This document shows, one piece after another, positions 1-52,117 of a stretch of 64,000 nt of DNA. Under the pieces are notes generated by a model. That model did no database searches, was not told where the DNA came from, and saw only the letters and a program-made list of their open reading frames with translations. The translations under genes were made by a program, and so were the position numbers. The stretch lies in assembly GCF_004352845.1 (NCBI RefSeq), contig NZ_SJRX01000001.1, forward strand, positions 1 through 64,000, read 5' to 3'. Within the stretch, counting starts at the first letter, position 1; each line of letters begins with the position of its first letter. The stretch comes from Luteimonas terricola. GTDB lineage: Bacteria > Pseudomonadota > Gammaproteobacteria > Xanthomonadales > Xanthomonadaceae.

Positions 1-140
1 GGGCTTCGCGGCTCATGTCCCCCGGCATCCGCCTGGCGGCGGATGCCTCCTCCTTTACTTCCCCGCGAAGCCCTCCCGGCCACGACGGGGCCCTCCAGGT
101 CACGGCAAGGCGTAGCGAAAGAAGCAGACACTCCTCGTCG
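1..140 (+). repeat. Composite structured repeat, copy A
   Basis: Positions 1-73 can fold into a two-stem structure. An outer 11-bp perfect stem pairs 1-11 with 63-73 and may extend beyond the window edge. An inner 10-bp perfect stem pairs 24-33 with 38-47 around a 4-nt loop. The unpaired blocks are CTCATGTCCCCC (12-23) and a TCCTCCTT-type tract (48-62). Positions 86-140 carry a second conserved block. Both blocks recur in the same order on the minus strand at 21773-22090, where the stems differ in sequence but the unpaired blocks are almost identical. I see no ORF supporting a protein here. It could be a REP/MITE-like element or a structured RNA. Confidence 0.7.
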
Positions 141-204: not shown

Positions 205-3014
205 TCAGAACTCGGTCGAGATGCTGAACGAGTAGGACACGCCCGGGTCGTAGCGCAGGACGTGGATCTTCTGGCCGCCGCCGCCCTCGATGTACTCGTC
301 GTACCCGGTGTCGAGGATGTTGCGCGCCGCGAAGCCCAGGGTCACCGGCGTATCGCCGAAGCGCATGGTCTTGTTCAATACCAGGTCCAGCGTCAGGCCC
401 GGCTCTTCCATGAGGTCCTGCCGCAGGTTGTTGCCGCGGGCCGAGATGCGCTCGCTGACGTAGTTGGCGATCAGCGTGGCCTGGAGGTCCTTTTCGGTGT
501 TCTCGATGCCGAACTGCAGGTTGGCGATGTGCTCCGACTGGCCCTGCATGTCGCTGCCGTCCAGGATCAGGCTGCGTGCGGGCTGCAGGTGGCCCGTGCC
601 GCCGTCTAGGGCCACCGTGTCGCTCGCGTCCGCGTTCACCTCGGACTGCGACCAGGTGTAGTTGGTGGCCAGGTAGAGGCGGCTGCCGTCCCACCAGTCC
701 GCGGCGATGCCCACGTCGAAGTACTTCTTGAACTCGAACTCGGCGCCGTAGACCGTGGCCTCGGGTGCGTTGACGAAGGTCTGCCAGAGGGTGTCGCCAC
801 CGCCGGTGAACATGATCGCTTCGATCGGGCTGTCGATCTGCTTGTAGAACAGGCCGGCGGTGAAGTACTCGCCCGAGCCGAAGAACCACTCGTAGCGGGC
901 GTCGAGGTTGGTCAGCTCGCTGTCGATCAGGTAGGGATTGCCGTACATCTGGCGATCCTTGTCGGGGTCGGTGTACAGCTGCGGCGACAGCTCGCGGAAC
1001 TGCGGACGGGCGATGGTCTGCGAGGCGCCGAAGCGGATCTGCCGGTTCTCTGCGATGTTCCAGGTCAGGGTCAGCGCGGGCAGGAAGTAGTCGTTCTCCA
1101 GCGGCGCCACGCTGCTGGCCACGCGGTTGCCGGTATAGATGTCGTACGGGTGCACCGCCTGGGTGGCGTCCTCGTAGCGGACGCCGAGGGTGCCGCGCAG
1201 GTTGGGGGTGATCTCGCCTTCGACCTGCGCGTAGGTGCCGAGGACCTTGAGCGTGGCGTCGTAGGCAGCCTGGCCGCCGGTGCCCGTGGTCTCCTCGAGC
1301 CTCAGCCAGCCCTGGCTCAGGTTGTAGTCGGAGAACAGGTAGTCGGGGCGCTGGTAGGGGAAGTAGAAGGGCATCTCGGCGCCGCCCCCCGGGCCGTCGC
1401 CCGCGAAGTACCTGAACTCGCGCGACCAGGCATTGCGGTCGTTGTCCATGTACGAGGCGCCGGCGGAAAGCGTGACGTCGCGCTGGACCGGAAGGCGCCA
1501 GGTCAGGTCGACGCCGCCGCTGGCGACCTCGTCCACGACCTCGCTGAAGCGGGTGTAGTTCTCCTGGTTCCGGACCGAGTAGGCCCAGTAGCCGTCACCC
1601 TCGTCGCGGAAGCCGATCTGCTTCTCGTAGGGCACGTCGCGGGTCGCGCGGGCCCAGGCGGCGCGCCATCGTCGCGGAAGCCGATCTGCTTCTCGTAGGG
1701 CACGTCGCGGGTCGCGCGGGCCCAGGCGGCGCGCCACTCGACCTTGAGGTCGTCGTACTCGCCAAAGGAGTGTTCGCCGCTGACCTGGTTGTTGATCATT
1801 TCGCGCTCGAACCAGCGGGTGTCGTCTTCGCGGACGCGATAGCCGCTGATGTTGTCCATGCCGGCGCGGCTGCGGGCTTCCTTGAGGGTGTCGTGCACGT
1901 ACAGGGTCGTCAGGTCGATCCTGTTGCGCCCCCATTCGTAGCCGGCGCCGAGCAGGGCGTTGACGCGGGCGTTGTTGCGGGTGGTGAGGAACTCGTAGTC
2001 CTTGCCGTAGGACAGGGTTTCCAGGTTGTCGCCGAGGAACACGCCCTGTTCCTGGTCGCCGAACGTGGTGCGCCACTTGTTGTCGAAGCCGGCCGCGGCG
2101 ATGAAGCCGATGCGCGCGTCATCGCCCATCTCGGCGGAATAGCCGGCGCTGAAGCCGAAGTTGACGTCCGGATCGATGTCGTCCTTTTCCTGCAGGACAT
2201 TGACGCTGGCGTTCTCGAGGCTGCGGCCGATCACCGCGAGCTCTTCATTGCTGAAGTTGTTGCGGTCGACCCGCTTGCCGGTGTCCATGGCATCGCGGAG
2301 CGCGCGCGGAATCTTGCGGGTGCCGTCGTCGTAGCCCCACCAGTCGTCGTCACCGCCGCCATAGTAGGTCAGGCCCTTCTCGCCGGTGGTGCCGTCATTG
2401 AAGCCGCCGCCCACGCTGATCTTGAAGAAGGGTTCTTCGGGGATGCTCAGCGACTGCAGGTCGATCACGCCGCCGCCGAACTCGCCGGGATACCTGGCCG
2501 AATAGGTCTTCTGCACGGTCATGCTCTGCAGGGCTTCGGCGGGGAACAGGTCCAGGGGCACGACGCGCTGCATCGGCTCCGGGCTGGGAAGGGGCGAGCC
2601 GTTGAGCAGCGCCGAGGAGTAGCGCTCGCCGAGGCCGCGAACGTAGACGTACTTGTCGCCGACGATGCTCACGCCGGACACGCGCTGCAGGGCAGCGGCC
2701 GCGTCGGAGTCGCCGGTGCGCTCGAAGTCCTCGCGGGTGACGAACGAGGCGACCTCGGCGGTCTGCAGCATCGGCTCGGGAATGTATTCGCCGCGCACTT
2801 CGACCGTATCGAGCGTCGCCGCCTGGTCGGCGGGCGCCTGCTGCGCGGTGGCCGTGGCGGCCGACTGCGCAATCGTGGCCTGCACGATCGTGGCCTGGGG
2901 CGGTACCGCGGCCTGGCCGCCGGGGCTTTCAGGCTGCTGGGCCCATGCGCCCTGGCATGCGATGAGGGTGGTGATCGCGACGAACAGGCCGCTGCGTGAC
3001 GGAGTGCGCTTCAT
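205..3014 (-). pseudogene. TonB-dependent receptor, frameshifted by a 68-bp tandem duplication
   Basis: An outer-membrane TonB-dependent receptor. It has a signal peptide (MKRTPSRSG start, cleavage near AWAQ), an N-terminal plug domain with YVRGLGERYSS and a GGGVIDLQS-type plug end, and a long beta-barrel ending in aromatic SFSISTEF. The reading frame breaks at a perfect 68-bp tandem duplication (1601-1736). Both halves encode the segment RAAWARATRDVPYEKQIGFR, one in each frame. Removing one copy restores an uninterrupted 913-residue receptor, a normal length for the family. It lies 91 bp downstream of the lipoprotein gene on the same strand, so the two are probably an operon. The ligand is unknown. 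The lesion could be a real recent mutation, a reversible slippage state or an assembly error. Confidence 0.85.
1601..1736. repeat. Perfect 68-bp tandem duplication
   Basis: Copy 1 is 1601-1668 and copy 2 is 1669-1736. They are identical at all 68 positions and directly adjacent. Because 68 is not a multiple of three, the duplication shifts the reading frame of the TonB-dependent receptor that contains it. Perfect identity implies a very recent origin. Confidence 0.95.
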
Positions 3015-4753: not shown

Positions 4754-4812
4754 TTGTGGTCGGCATCGCCAACGCCGGTCACATGCGACATTCCGATGAC
4801 GGTTGCATGTCG

Positions 4813-4834
4813 CTGTCATGTCGCTGTCATGTGC
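4813..4834 (+). promoter_or_regulatory. Pho box (PhoB operator)
   Basis: Two exact CTGTCAT heptamers (4813-4819 and 4824-4830) are separated by 4 bp, giving the 11-bp period of the PhoB consensus. A degenerate third repeat in phase begins at 4802. The site reads toward the oxygenase gene starting at 4866. It could also serve the divergent lipoprotein/receptor operon. Confidence 0.65.
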
Positions 4835-4865
4835 TGCTGGCCTGCTTTGTGCCGTCAGGAGCTGG

Positions 4866-5732
4866 ATGGGGCGGGAGCGGATGGACAGGCCGGAAATCGA
4901 TGCGGCGTTGATGCAGTGGTTGCTGGAGCGTGTGCAGTCGGGTGCGTCGCCGGAGGATGTGGTCGCGGCGATGGTCGGGCGCGGCTGGAAGGAGGGCGAC
5001 GCGGTCGCTGCCCTCGAATCCGCGATGCGCGAGCACCTCGAGGCCCACGCCCGCGACAACGACCTGCCGCCGCCCGAGCGCGTGCCCGCGCCGCTGGCGT
5101 TGAACGGACCTTCGGTGATCGAGGCTGGTGACCGCCGGGTAACCGTGCTCGCCAACCTGCTGCACCCCCGGGTGGTGGTCTTCGGCAGCGTGCTGTCGGA
5201 CGCGGAGTGCGACGCCCTGGTGGCGATGGGGCGCGAGCGGCTGCGGCCGTCGTCGGTCATGAACATGGACACCGGCTCGGACGAGGTGCAGTCGGGGCGC
5301 ACCAGCGACGGCATGTTTTTTCGCCGCGGCGAGAACGCGCTCTGTGACCGGGTCGAGCGCCGCCTGGCTGCCCTGGTCGACTGGCCGCTGGAAAACGGCG
5401 AGGGCCTGCAGCTGCTGCGCTACGGCCCCGGCGCCGAGTACAAGCCGCACTACGATTATTTCGACCCTGCGCGGGTGGGCGCGAGCGGGACCCTGGCGCG
5501 CGGCGGCCAACGGGTGGCGTCGATCGTGATGTACCTCAACACGCCGGCGCACGGGGGTGCCACGACGTTTCCCGATGCGCGGTTCGAAGTTGCGGCGGTC
5601 AAGGGCAATGCGGCCTTCTTCACCTACGACCGCCCGCACCCGATGACGGGCAGCCTGCACGGCGGCGCACCGGTGATCGAAGGGGAAAAGTGGGTCGCGA
5701 CCAAATGGCTGCGGGTCGGTCGCTACGATTGA
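4866..5732 (+). CDS. Prolyl 4-hydroxylase-like 2OG-Fe(II) oxygenase
   Basis: A 288-residue protein whose C-terminal two thirds match the P4H-type 2-oxoglutarate/Fe(II) dioxygenase fold. The HxD pair is in KPHYDYFDP, and the distal iron-binding His and 2OG-binding Lys are in SLHGGAPVIEGEKWVATKW. The N-terminal 90 or so residues are a helical extension of unknown role. Such enzymes hydroxylate proline or other residues; the substrate here is unknown. An AGGAG lies 4 nt before the ATG at 4866; 4881 is an alternative start. A strong Pho box ends about 30 bp upstream, suggesting phosphate-responsive expression. It is transcribed divergently from the lipoprotein/receptor pair. Confidence 0.8.
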   Translation: MGRERMDRPEIDAALMQWLLERVQSGASPEDVVAAMVGRGWKEGDAVAALESAMREHLEAHARDNDLPPPERVPAPLALNGPSVIEAGDRRVTVLANLLHPRVVVFGSVLSDAECDALVAMGRERLRPSSVMNMDTGSDEVQSGRTSDGMFFRRGENALCDRVERRLAALVDWPLENGEGLQLLRYGPGAEYKPHYDYFDPARVGASGTLARGGQRVASIVMYLNTPAHGGATTFPDARFEVAAVKGNAAFFTYDRPHPMTGSLHGGAPVIEGEKWVATKWLRVGRYD

Positions 5733-39741: not shown

Positions 39742-40341
39742 ATGGAGCGCTTCCACTGCGCGGTGACCGACATCGCCGAGGGTCCGCTGGATCCTGCCGC
39801 GGCGCTGGACTTCGTCTCCGACCCCGGTTTCGGCGGCATCACGATGTTCGTGGGCCGGGTGCGCGATCTCAACCACGGCCGCGTGGTGACCGGGGTCAGC
39901 TACGACATGTTCGAGCCACTGGCGCTGAACGGCTTCAGGGCCATTGCCGCCGACATCGATACCCGCTTCGGGCCGAAGGTCCGGCTGTACGTCGCGCACG
40001 CGAAGGGCCGCCTGGGCGTGGGCGACCTGGCCGTGGTGGTGGCCGCCGGCACCCCGCACCGCGACGAGGCCTTCCGCGCCTGCCGCGAGCTGATCGAAGC
40101 GGTGAAGCACACCAGCCCGATCTGGAAGCAGGAGCACTACGAGGACGGTGACAGCGTCTGGAGCGAAGGTTGCTCGCTGTGTGGCGACGGCCAGCATCAG
40201 CACGATCACGATCACGATCACGGGCACGATCACGGGCAGGGCCAAGCCCACGCGAATGCGGATGCGGATGCGAACGCTGCGGCATCCGCCACAACGCCCG
40301 CGGAGCGGGTACCGCCTGCGGCCCGGCCCCGGACGCAATGA
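39742..40341 (+). CDS. moaE: Molybdopterin synthase catalytic subunit with His-rich tail
   Basis: A 199-residue protein. The first 145 residues are MoaE, which with MoaD converts cPMP to molybdopterin. The conserved MFVGRVRDLNHGR and KHTSPIWKQEHYEDG segments contain the catalytic lysines. A tail of about 50 residues follows, starting CSLCGDGQHQHDHDHDHGHD, with two Cys and many His/Asp, then Ala/Asp-rich sequence. This tail is absent from standard MoaE and could bind Zn, Ni, Cu or molybdate-related metal. It overlaps the next gene by 4 bp. Confidence 0.9.
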   Translation: MERFHCAVTDIAEGPLDPAAALDFVSDPGFGGITMFVGRVRDLNHGRVVTGVSYDMFEPLALNGFRAIAADIDTRFGPKVRLYVAHAKGRLGVGDLAVVVAAGTPHRDEAFRACRELIEAVKHTSPIWKQEHYEDGDSVWSEGCSLCGDGQHQHDHDHDHGHDHGQGQAHANADADANAAASATTPAERVPPAARPRTQ

Positions 40342-49550: not shown

Positions 49551-52117
49551 GACAGCGCCTTGAGCCGGTACAGGGCTTCCAGCGCCTGTTTCGGCGTGAG
49601 TTCGTCGGGGTCGATGCCCGCCAGCGCTTCCAGCGCCGCGGAGGAGGGTGCGAACAGCCCGAACTGCTGCGGCGAATCCAGCGTCTCCGCCGACAGCGGC
49701 GGCGATGCCGGCGGACCCTGCTGCTCGAGCTCGGCGAGCCGCGCGCGCGCCTGGCCCAGCACCGGCCTGGGCAGTCCGGCCAGCGCCGCCACCTGCAGGC
49801 CGAAGCTGCGGTTGGCGGGGCCGTCCTTGACGGCATGCATGAACACCAGCGCGTCGCCGTGCTCGACTGCATCCAGGTGCACGTTGGCGATGCCGCTGCC
49901 CGGCGTCGCCAGCGCGGTCAGCTCGAAATAGTGCGTGGCGAACAGCGTGTAGCAGCGGTTGTGCGCGGCCAGGTGGCGCGCGCAGGCCTCGGCCAGCGCC
50001 AGGCCGTCGTAGGTCGACGTGCCGCGGCCGATCTCGTCCATCAGCACCAGCGACTGCGCCGTGGCGTGGTGCAGGATGTGGCTGGTCTCGCTCATTTCGA
50101 CCATGAAGGTCGACTGCCCGCGGGCGAGGTCGTCGCCGGCACCGATGCGGGTGAGGATGCGGTCGATCGGCCCGATGCGCGCCGCGCTGGCCGGCACGAA
50201 GCTGCCGATGTGGGCCAACAGCACGATCAGCGCGTTCTGGCGCATGTAGGTGCTCTTGCCGCCCATGTTGGGGCCGGTGATCACCAGCATGCGGCGGTCG
50301 TCGCCGAGCATCAGGTCGTTGGGTTCGAAGGGGTCGTCGCGGACGGCTTCGACCACCGGGTGGCGGCCGCGCTCGATGTGCAGGCAGGACGCGTCGACCA
50401 GCTCCGGCCGCGACCAGTCCAGCGCCTGCGCGCGCTCGGCCAGGCCCGCGAGCACGTCGAGTTCGGCCAGTGCGCCCGCGCAGCGCTTGAGCGATTCCAG
50501 GTGCAGGTTGAGCTCGTCCAGCAGCTGCTCGTAGAGCAGGCGCTCGCGGGCGAGTGCGCGCTCACGGGCGGACAGCACCTTGTCCTCGAAGCCCTTCAGC
50601 TCCTCGGTGATGTAGCGCTCGGCGTTGGTCAGCGTCTGGCGGCGGGTGTAGTGCGTCGGTGCCTTTGCCACGTGCGCCTTGCCGATCTCGAGGTAATAGC
50701 CGTGCACGCGGTTGTAGCCGACCTTGAGCGTGGCGATGCCGCTGGCCTCGCGCTCGCGGGCTTCGAGGTCGATCAGGAACCGGTCGGCGTGGGTCGACAG
50801 GCGGCGCAGTTCCGCGAGTTCGGCATCGTGGCCATCGGCGAACACGCCGCCGTCGCGTGCCAGCACCGGCGGCTGCTCGACCAGGGCGTCGGCCAGCAGC
50901 CGCGCCTGCGCATCGTGCTCGCCCAGGCCGGCGACCAGCGCCTGCAGCCGCGGCGAATCCACCGTTGCCAGCAGTGCGCGCAGCGCCGGCAGCAGGCCCA
51001 GCGCGTCGCGCAGGGTCGACAGGTCGCGCGGCCGCGCCGAGCGCAGCGCAATGCGCGAGAGGATGCGTTCGACGTCGCCGAGCGCGCGGAACTGCTCGCG
51101 CAGGTCGCGTTCGACGCCGTCGTCGATCAGCGCGCCGACGGCATGGTGGCGCTGGGCGACCACTGTGCGGTCGCGCAGCGGACGGTGCAGCCAGCGGCGC
51201 AGCAGGCGCCCGCCCATCGGCGTGACCGTGCTGTCGAGCACGCCGAGCAGGGTGTGCTTCTGCTCGCCGTCCACGCGCGTGTCGAGTTCCAGGTGGCGGC
51301 GGGTGGCGGCGTTCATGGCGATGGCGCCGTCGCTGGATTCCACCGCGATCGCGGTCAGGTGCGGCAGGCGCTGCTTCTGCGTCTCCTCGACGTAGCCCAG
51401 CAATGCGCCGGCCGCGGCGATCGCCAGCGGACGCTCGTCGATGCCGAAGGCGGTCAGGTCGTGCAGGCCGAAGAAGCGCAGCAGCTGGCGGCGGCCGCTG
51501 TCGGCGTCGAACAGCCAGGGCGCGCGCCGGCGCAGGCCGCCGCGGGTGGTGGCGAAGGCCGGCCAGCCTTCCTCGTCGGGCAGCAGCAGCTCGGCGGGAT
51601 CCAGGCGCGCCAGTTCGGCTTCCAGCGCGTCGTCGCTGGCGACCTCGTTGGCCAGGAAGCGGCCCCCGGCCAGGTCTGCCCAGGCCAGGCCGTAACCGGA
51701 CTTCCCGCGGCTGACGGCCAGCAGCAGGGTGTCGCGGCGCTCGCTCAGCAGCGCCTCGTCGGTGACCGTGCCGGGGGTGACGATGCGCACCACCTTGCGC
51801 TCGACCAGGCCCTTGCTCGTGGCCGGATCGCCGACCTGTTCGCAGATCGCCACCGACTCGCCCAGGGCCACCAGCCGTGCCAGATAGCCTTCCGCCGCGT
51901 GGTGCGGCACGCCCGCCATCGGGATCGGCGCTCCGCCCGAGGCGCCGCGCTGGGTCAGTGTGATGTCGAGCAGCTTCGCCGCGCGTCGCGCGTCGTCGTG
52001 GAACAGCTCGTAGAAGTCGCCCATGCGGAAGAACAGCAGCACGTCGGGGTGCTCCGCCTTGTTGGCGAAGTACTGCTTCATGAGGGGGGTGTGTTCGGGC
52101 GTCTTGTCCAGCGTCAT
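49547..52117 (-). CDS. mutS: DNA mismatch repair protein MutS
   Basis: An 856-residue mismatch-recognition ATPase. The Phe-x-Glu mismatch-contact motif is in [11 protein letters not shown], Walker A is [13 protein letters not shown], and [16 protein letters not shown] and the FATHYFELT switch follow. The start [16 protein letters not shown] at 52117 matches the family. Confidence 0.98.

Follow-up and report, generated by a model that had tools for sequence, protein, structure and literature searches.

A 68-bp exact tandem duplication interrupting a TonB-dependent receptor gene of Luteimonas terricola is probably a recent mutation

The loss of a surface function through a tandem duplication inside an open reading frame has its nearest precedent in the capsule genes of pneumococcus. 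In the available part of the source (PMC4022640), duplications in the type 3 locus, cap8E and tts (Waite et al. 2001, 2003) are reported as phase variation, and a tandem duplication in wchA switches off the serotype 8 capsule. The locus described here likewise carries an in-ORF duplication, but it is known from one genome and concerns another gene in another organism. A frame shift through a change in repeat number, in principle reversible without RecA, is also described for the tetranucleotide of Staphylococcus aureus icaC, which according to the accessible sections of that report is a standing simple repeat with differences between isolates (PMC4117637). In contrast, the orthologs of the Luteimonas receptor have no repeat at the site (36 of 36 loci). 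From the text available to us, plasmid-borne 101-bp tandem repeats in Escherichia coli are deleted at high frequency independently of RecA (PMC8378479), and promoter tandem repeats in Mycobacterium tuberculosis, two of them with units of 54-57 bp, change at rates of 1e-2 to 1e-3 per chromosome (PMC12817950).

The type of mutation is already known and ordinary. Reversion of the capsule-gene duplications was reportedly measured by Waite et al. in 2001 and 2003. A limited search of open-licence papers showed no published report of the present locus among the papers listed. What the locus offers is a clean case of a young interrupting mutation, which annotation would call a pseudogene though every ortholog examined is open, and a natural construct for gauging the collapse rate of an exact 68-bp duplication in a bacterium with Ku and LigD. 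For the biology of receptors or of switches the locus holds no new lesson unless cultures turn out to be mixed in copy number.

The interrupted receptor gene and its neighbors

We analyzed a window of 64,000 nucleotides (bases 1-64000). The contig it comes from is 1,002,475 bases long, and the assembly totals 3.04 Mb in 20 contigs. An earlier reading of the sequence alone had proposed two identical, adjacent 68-bp copies at 1601-1736, and both TRF (100% match, score 272) and a period-68 scan bear this out. Identity at period 68 extends over exactly 68 bases, with no homology outside the copies. Scanning the window at periods 12-2999 for exact runs at least as long as the period or 25 bases, whichever is smaller, yielded a single further run (period 12, 14 bases, at 40213). 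TRF also lists imperfect arrays elsewhere in the window, such as a 41-bp unit present twice with 80% match at 51035-51116.

Read from 3014 to 205, the receptor gene measures 2810 bases with two copies and 2742 with one, the latter being exactly 913 codons plus a stop. The gene is thus an otherwise complete 913-residue receptor, as the sequence-only reading had it. Because 68 is not a multiple of 3, the duplication breaks the reading frame; a protein read from the native ATG ends after 503 residues and the two halves lie in different frames, which confirms the proposed frame shift. No second lesion splits the frame, which consists of an N-terminal ORF starting at the native ATG and an overlapping C-terminal frame that runs to 205 (Table 1). 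About 448 residues of the truncated product are native and the remaining 55 are out of frame.

Table 1 Features at the interrupted receptor locus, in window coordinates.
Feature	Position	Strand	Basis or context
TonB-dependent receptor gene, interrupted, otherwise 913 codons	205..3014	-	Plug and barrel in two pieces; ortholog comparison
Truncated product ORF, 503 residues (N-terminus, plug, part of barrel, 55 out-of-frame residues)	1503..3014	-	ORF list; Plug match; translation
C-terminal barrel half, sequence intact, out of frame with the start	205..1599	-	ORF list; barrel match; orthologs
Copy 1 in reading direction, native frame	1669..1736	-	TRF; period scan
Copy 2 in reading direction, frame shifted	1601..1668	-	TRF; period scan; translation
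502-residue lipoprotein-like protein, predicted beta-helix	3106..4614	-	Adjoins receptor in 21/21 species-assigned loci
Divergent 2OG-Fe(II) oxygenase ORF, PF13640, start approximate	4803..5732	+	Near receptor in 20/21 species-assigned loci

Domain matches fall on either side of the break. The Plug domain (PF07715) scores 52.3 bits in the N-terminal piece, over its curated cut-off of 23.9, and the barrel (PF00593) scores 90.3 bits in the out-of-frame C-terminal piece, over its cut-off of 27. Plug and barrel share a single open frame in all 36 ortholog loci, not here. These loci represent 28 genomes, as 8 contigs are counted in both of the underlying sets (15 loci, and 21 species-assigned loci of which 11 are from Luteimonas). 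Among NCBIfam families, TIGR01782 (TonB-Xanth-Caul) matches both pieces best, and it is also the top family for two intact orthologs. None of them reaches its curated threshold of 310 bits: the pieces score 83 and 146 bits and the orthologs 208 and 224.

Barrels of TonB-dependent receptors that are incomplete and lack the C-terminal strand are expected not to assemble in the outer membrane. The truncated product is without the second half of the barrel and this strand, so its assembly should fail, and receptor function would be lost. Each search of the assembly returned one match, thus no second copy of the gene. The genome encodes roughly twenty outer-membrane uptake receptors of the TonB type, one of them broken: of the 21 Plug matches that pass the cut-off, 20 belong to frames of 687 residues or more, the exception being the interrupted receptor (555), while a 22nd match, below the cut-off, sits in a 188-residue frame.

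The lipoprotein-like and oxygenase genes accompany the receptor in Luteimonas, Lysobacter, Xanthomonas and others; the one species-assigned locus that lacks the oxygenase (L034) is a 7-kb contig, which stops short of where the gene would be. We take the N-terminal motif of the adjoining gene product to be lipoprotein-like. A Pfam search with this protein gave no match at E 0.1, and sequence searches for relatives of solved structure returned none for it (E 0.1) and none for the barrel piece (E 1e-3). Its model has a mean pLDDT of 81.5 and a predicted beta-helix, and matches beta-helix proteins weakly, with a best E of 8e-4 at a TM-score of 0.23 and a top query TM-score of 0.34 among the matches listed.

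Copy number in relatives and age of the break

Comparison with relatives, all of them other species, gave the one-copy state throughout. In the 36 ortholog loci both halves are in one open frame, and the gap between the reference pieces is 23 or 24 residues, enough for a single copy only; there is no repeat at the duplication site. A genus-wide search with the barrel piece (52 genomes, threshold 1e-30) found matches in 25: the source genome, 23 orthologs and one distant protein (34% identity, 917 residues, open). All 23 orthologs have open frames of 896-1315 residues, compared with 637 in the source genome. Leaving out the distant match, the receptor occurs in 24 of the 52 genus genomes including the source, and by this distribution it is an accessory gene. 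Among the species compared, the duplication appears to be private to the strain.

Codon changes private to the strain were counted on both sides of the break. Upstream there are 19 synonymous and 9 nonsynonymous changes and downstream 13 and 6, with no difference in ratio (p=1.0). In the absence of selection 0.23-0.29 of the changes would be synonymous, a share that the downstream 13 of 19 greatly exceeds (p=4e-5 to 4e-4). Judged by these counts, purifying selection is no weaker beyond the break than before it. Since the codons past the break still show purifying selection, with no decay, the break is probably not old; the private changes cover the whole branch, so that it would be young relative to that branch. 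For the downstream half, dN/dS between the source strain and four close relatives is 0.20-0.25, against 0.15-0.17 between L. granuli and the other three and 0.21, 0.18 and 0.17 for the pairs colneyensis-arsenica, padinae-arsenica and colneyensis-padinae. The slightly higher values of the source strain count against a young break, but its private-change counts do not differ from those of L. granuli (p=0.50).

Origin of the duplication and competing explanations

Of the three readings offered from the sequence alone, an on/off switch, a fresh mutation and an assembly artefact, the fresh mutation is the best supported, given single-copy orthologs at 36 of 36 loci, the lack of decay past the break and the identity of the copies. 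We consider it probable that this is a real and recent 68-bp tandem duplication, strain-private among the species compared, that arose by an illegitimate event and turned the receptor off through the frameshift. We infer both its reality in cells and its mechanism of origin. Template switching, or end joining that needs little or no homology, would have duplicated the 68 bp, and the resulting frameshift would have silenced the gene. Replication slippage could drop one exact, adjacent copy at some frequency; reversibility would then be a by-product of the mutation and not a selected device.

The junction itself is of limited help in choosing among mechanisms. Microhomology was considered as the cause and set aside, as there is none beyond the copies. 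However, 56% of random 68-bp duplications are likewise without homology at the junction, so a bare junction favors no one mechanism. Ku and the LigD primase-polymerase are both encoded in the source genome, and the pair could have joined the filled-in ends of a staggered break, a route compatible with the data; Ku is present in 47 of 52 genus genomes and is so common that its presence says little about the event. A hairpin was likewise rejected as the cause: the single strand of 1580-1760 folds modestly better than shuffled sequences (z -2.1, 6 of 200 as good), and much of this is due to the repeat itself.

The leading alternative is an error in the joining of contigs or reads, which would have introduced the second copy into the sequence of a culture that has one. 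The duplication lies just 1.6 kb from the contig end, and a homology-free junction is what careless concatenation of overlapping ends is expected to produce. This reading is weakened by the assembly's own overlaps. In 8 pairs of contig ends, three of these among the same three ends, the shared sequence is exactly 127 bases long (other end matches measure 83, 66, 65, 32 and 28 bases), which we take to be the signature of a de Bruijn graph with k=127 in a SPAdes-type assembly. An untrimmed overlap would then duplicate about 127 bases and not 68. In addition, none of the k values tried (69, 77, 99 and 127) gives a repeated k-mer in 1001-2400, so that a k=127 graph crosses the duplication unambiguously. 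All 20 junction 21-mers are absent elsewhere in the window, and the assembler would therefore have needed reads bearing the junction. The sampled stretches contain no N, and the nearby contig end is itself inside a dispersed repeat. The earlier suggestion of an assembly artefact is therefore unlikely, in view of the 127-base overlaps and the novel junction k-mers. The same graph could have collapsed an original array of three or more copies to two.

Chance reversion is plausible by analogy with the tandem repeats of other bacteria. Two further readings concern regulation. In one, the receptor would be a contingency locus without a standing simple repeat: unit-length duplications of unique sequence would arise and collapse often, for example under attack by phage or toxin via the receptor, and cultures would be mixtures of on and off cells. 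We regard this as quite improbable. In the other, which we hold to be very improbable, the two-copy state would be kept for its frequent reversion as an evolved phase-variation switch. The arithmetic permits a switch, as copy numbers 1 and 4 are in frame and 2 and 3 are out of frame. There are parallels in the M. tuberculosis promoter repeats, which vary within cultures in the portion of that study at hand (PMC12817950), and in the pneumococcal wchA duplication, which abolished the serotype 8 capsule in the part of the account available (PMC4022640).

Several observations speak against such a device. All 36 ortholog loci have space for one copy only, and 20 of the 21 Plug matches over the cut-off lie in long frames (at least 687 residues). 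We scanned a further 725,080 bases (15,629 of them counted twice; periods 12-1499), which together with the window make up a quarter of the genome, and found just two other exact duplications with runs of at least 20 bases, both with 18-bp units; none with a longer unit occurs in the sample or in the window. A control scan of 284,275 bases from relatives (loci L002-L041, some genomes represented twice) gave short or low-complexity units of up to 24 bp at 3 loci. The on/off switch of the sequence-only reading is hence unsupported as an evolved device, with no repeat at the site in 36 loci and no similar exact repeat in the scanned quarter. In the control scan, a low-complexity exact repeat run with overlapping periods of 12-24 was seen in a metagenome-assembled genome (locus L028:1249).

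Lastly, an original in-frame duplication of 69 bp at CTCG/CTCG, followed by loss of one junction base through mutation or base-call error, is hardly credible: CTCG does stand at both ends (1600-1603 and 1737-1740), shifted by one base relative to the 68-bp unit, but a match of at least 4 bases with this shift arises by chance at 8.8% of 4910 sites and the observed unit is plainly 68.

The dispersed repeat at the contig end

At window positions 1-104, where the contig starts, lies a palindromic repeat of about 91 bp that is dispersed in the genome. No match to it at E 1e-3 was found in two genomes of relatives (G018 and G015); a third (G003) has 10 weaker matches. The enzyme usually associated with REP elements, Y1 transposase (PF01797), is not evident, as a search of the genome did not find it. 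A contig of L. colneyensis (50,010 bases; L003 / L022) likewise starts about 200 bases past the 3' end of the receptor gene, though that genome showed no match to the repeat. Scoring 40 of the 97 candidates from a first look gave at least 40 near-full matches of at least 88% identity within the source genome. At least 11 of these lie no more than about 130 bases from an end of a contig, and there are 29 partial matches in addition. In the pairs examined, the partial match lies about 90 bases from a full copy and in the opposite orientation. The repeat is predicted to form a strong hairpin (z -4.4).
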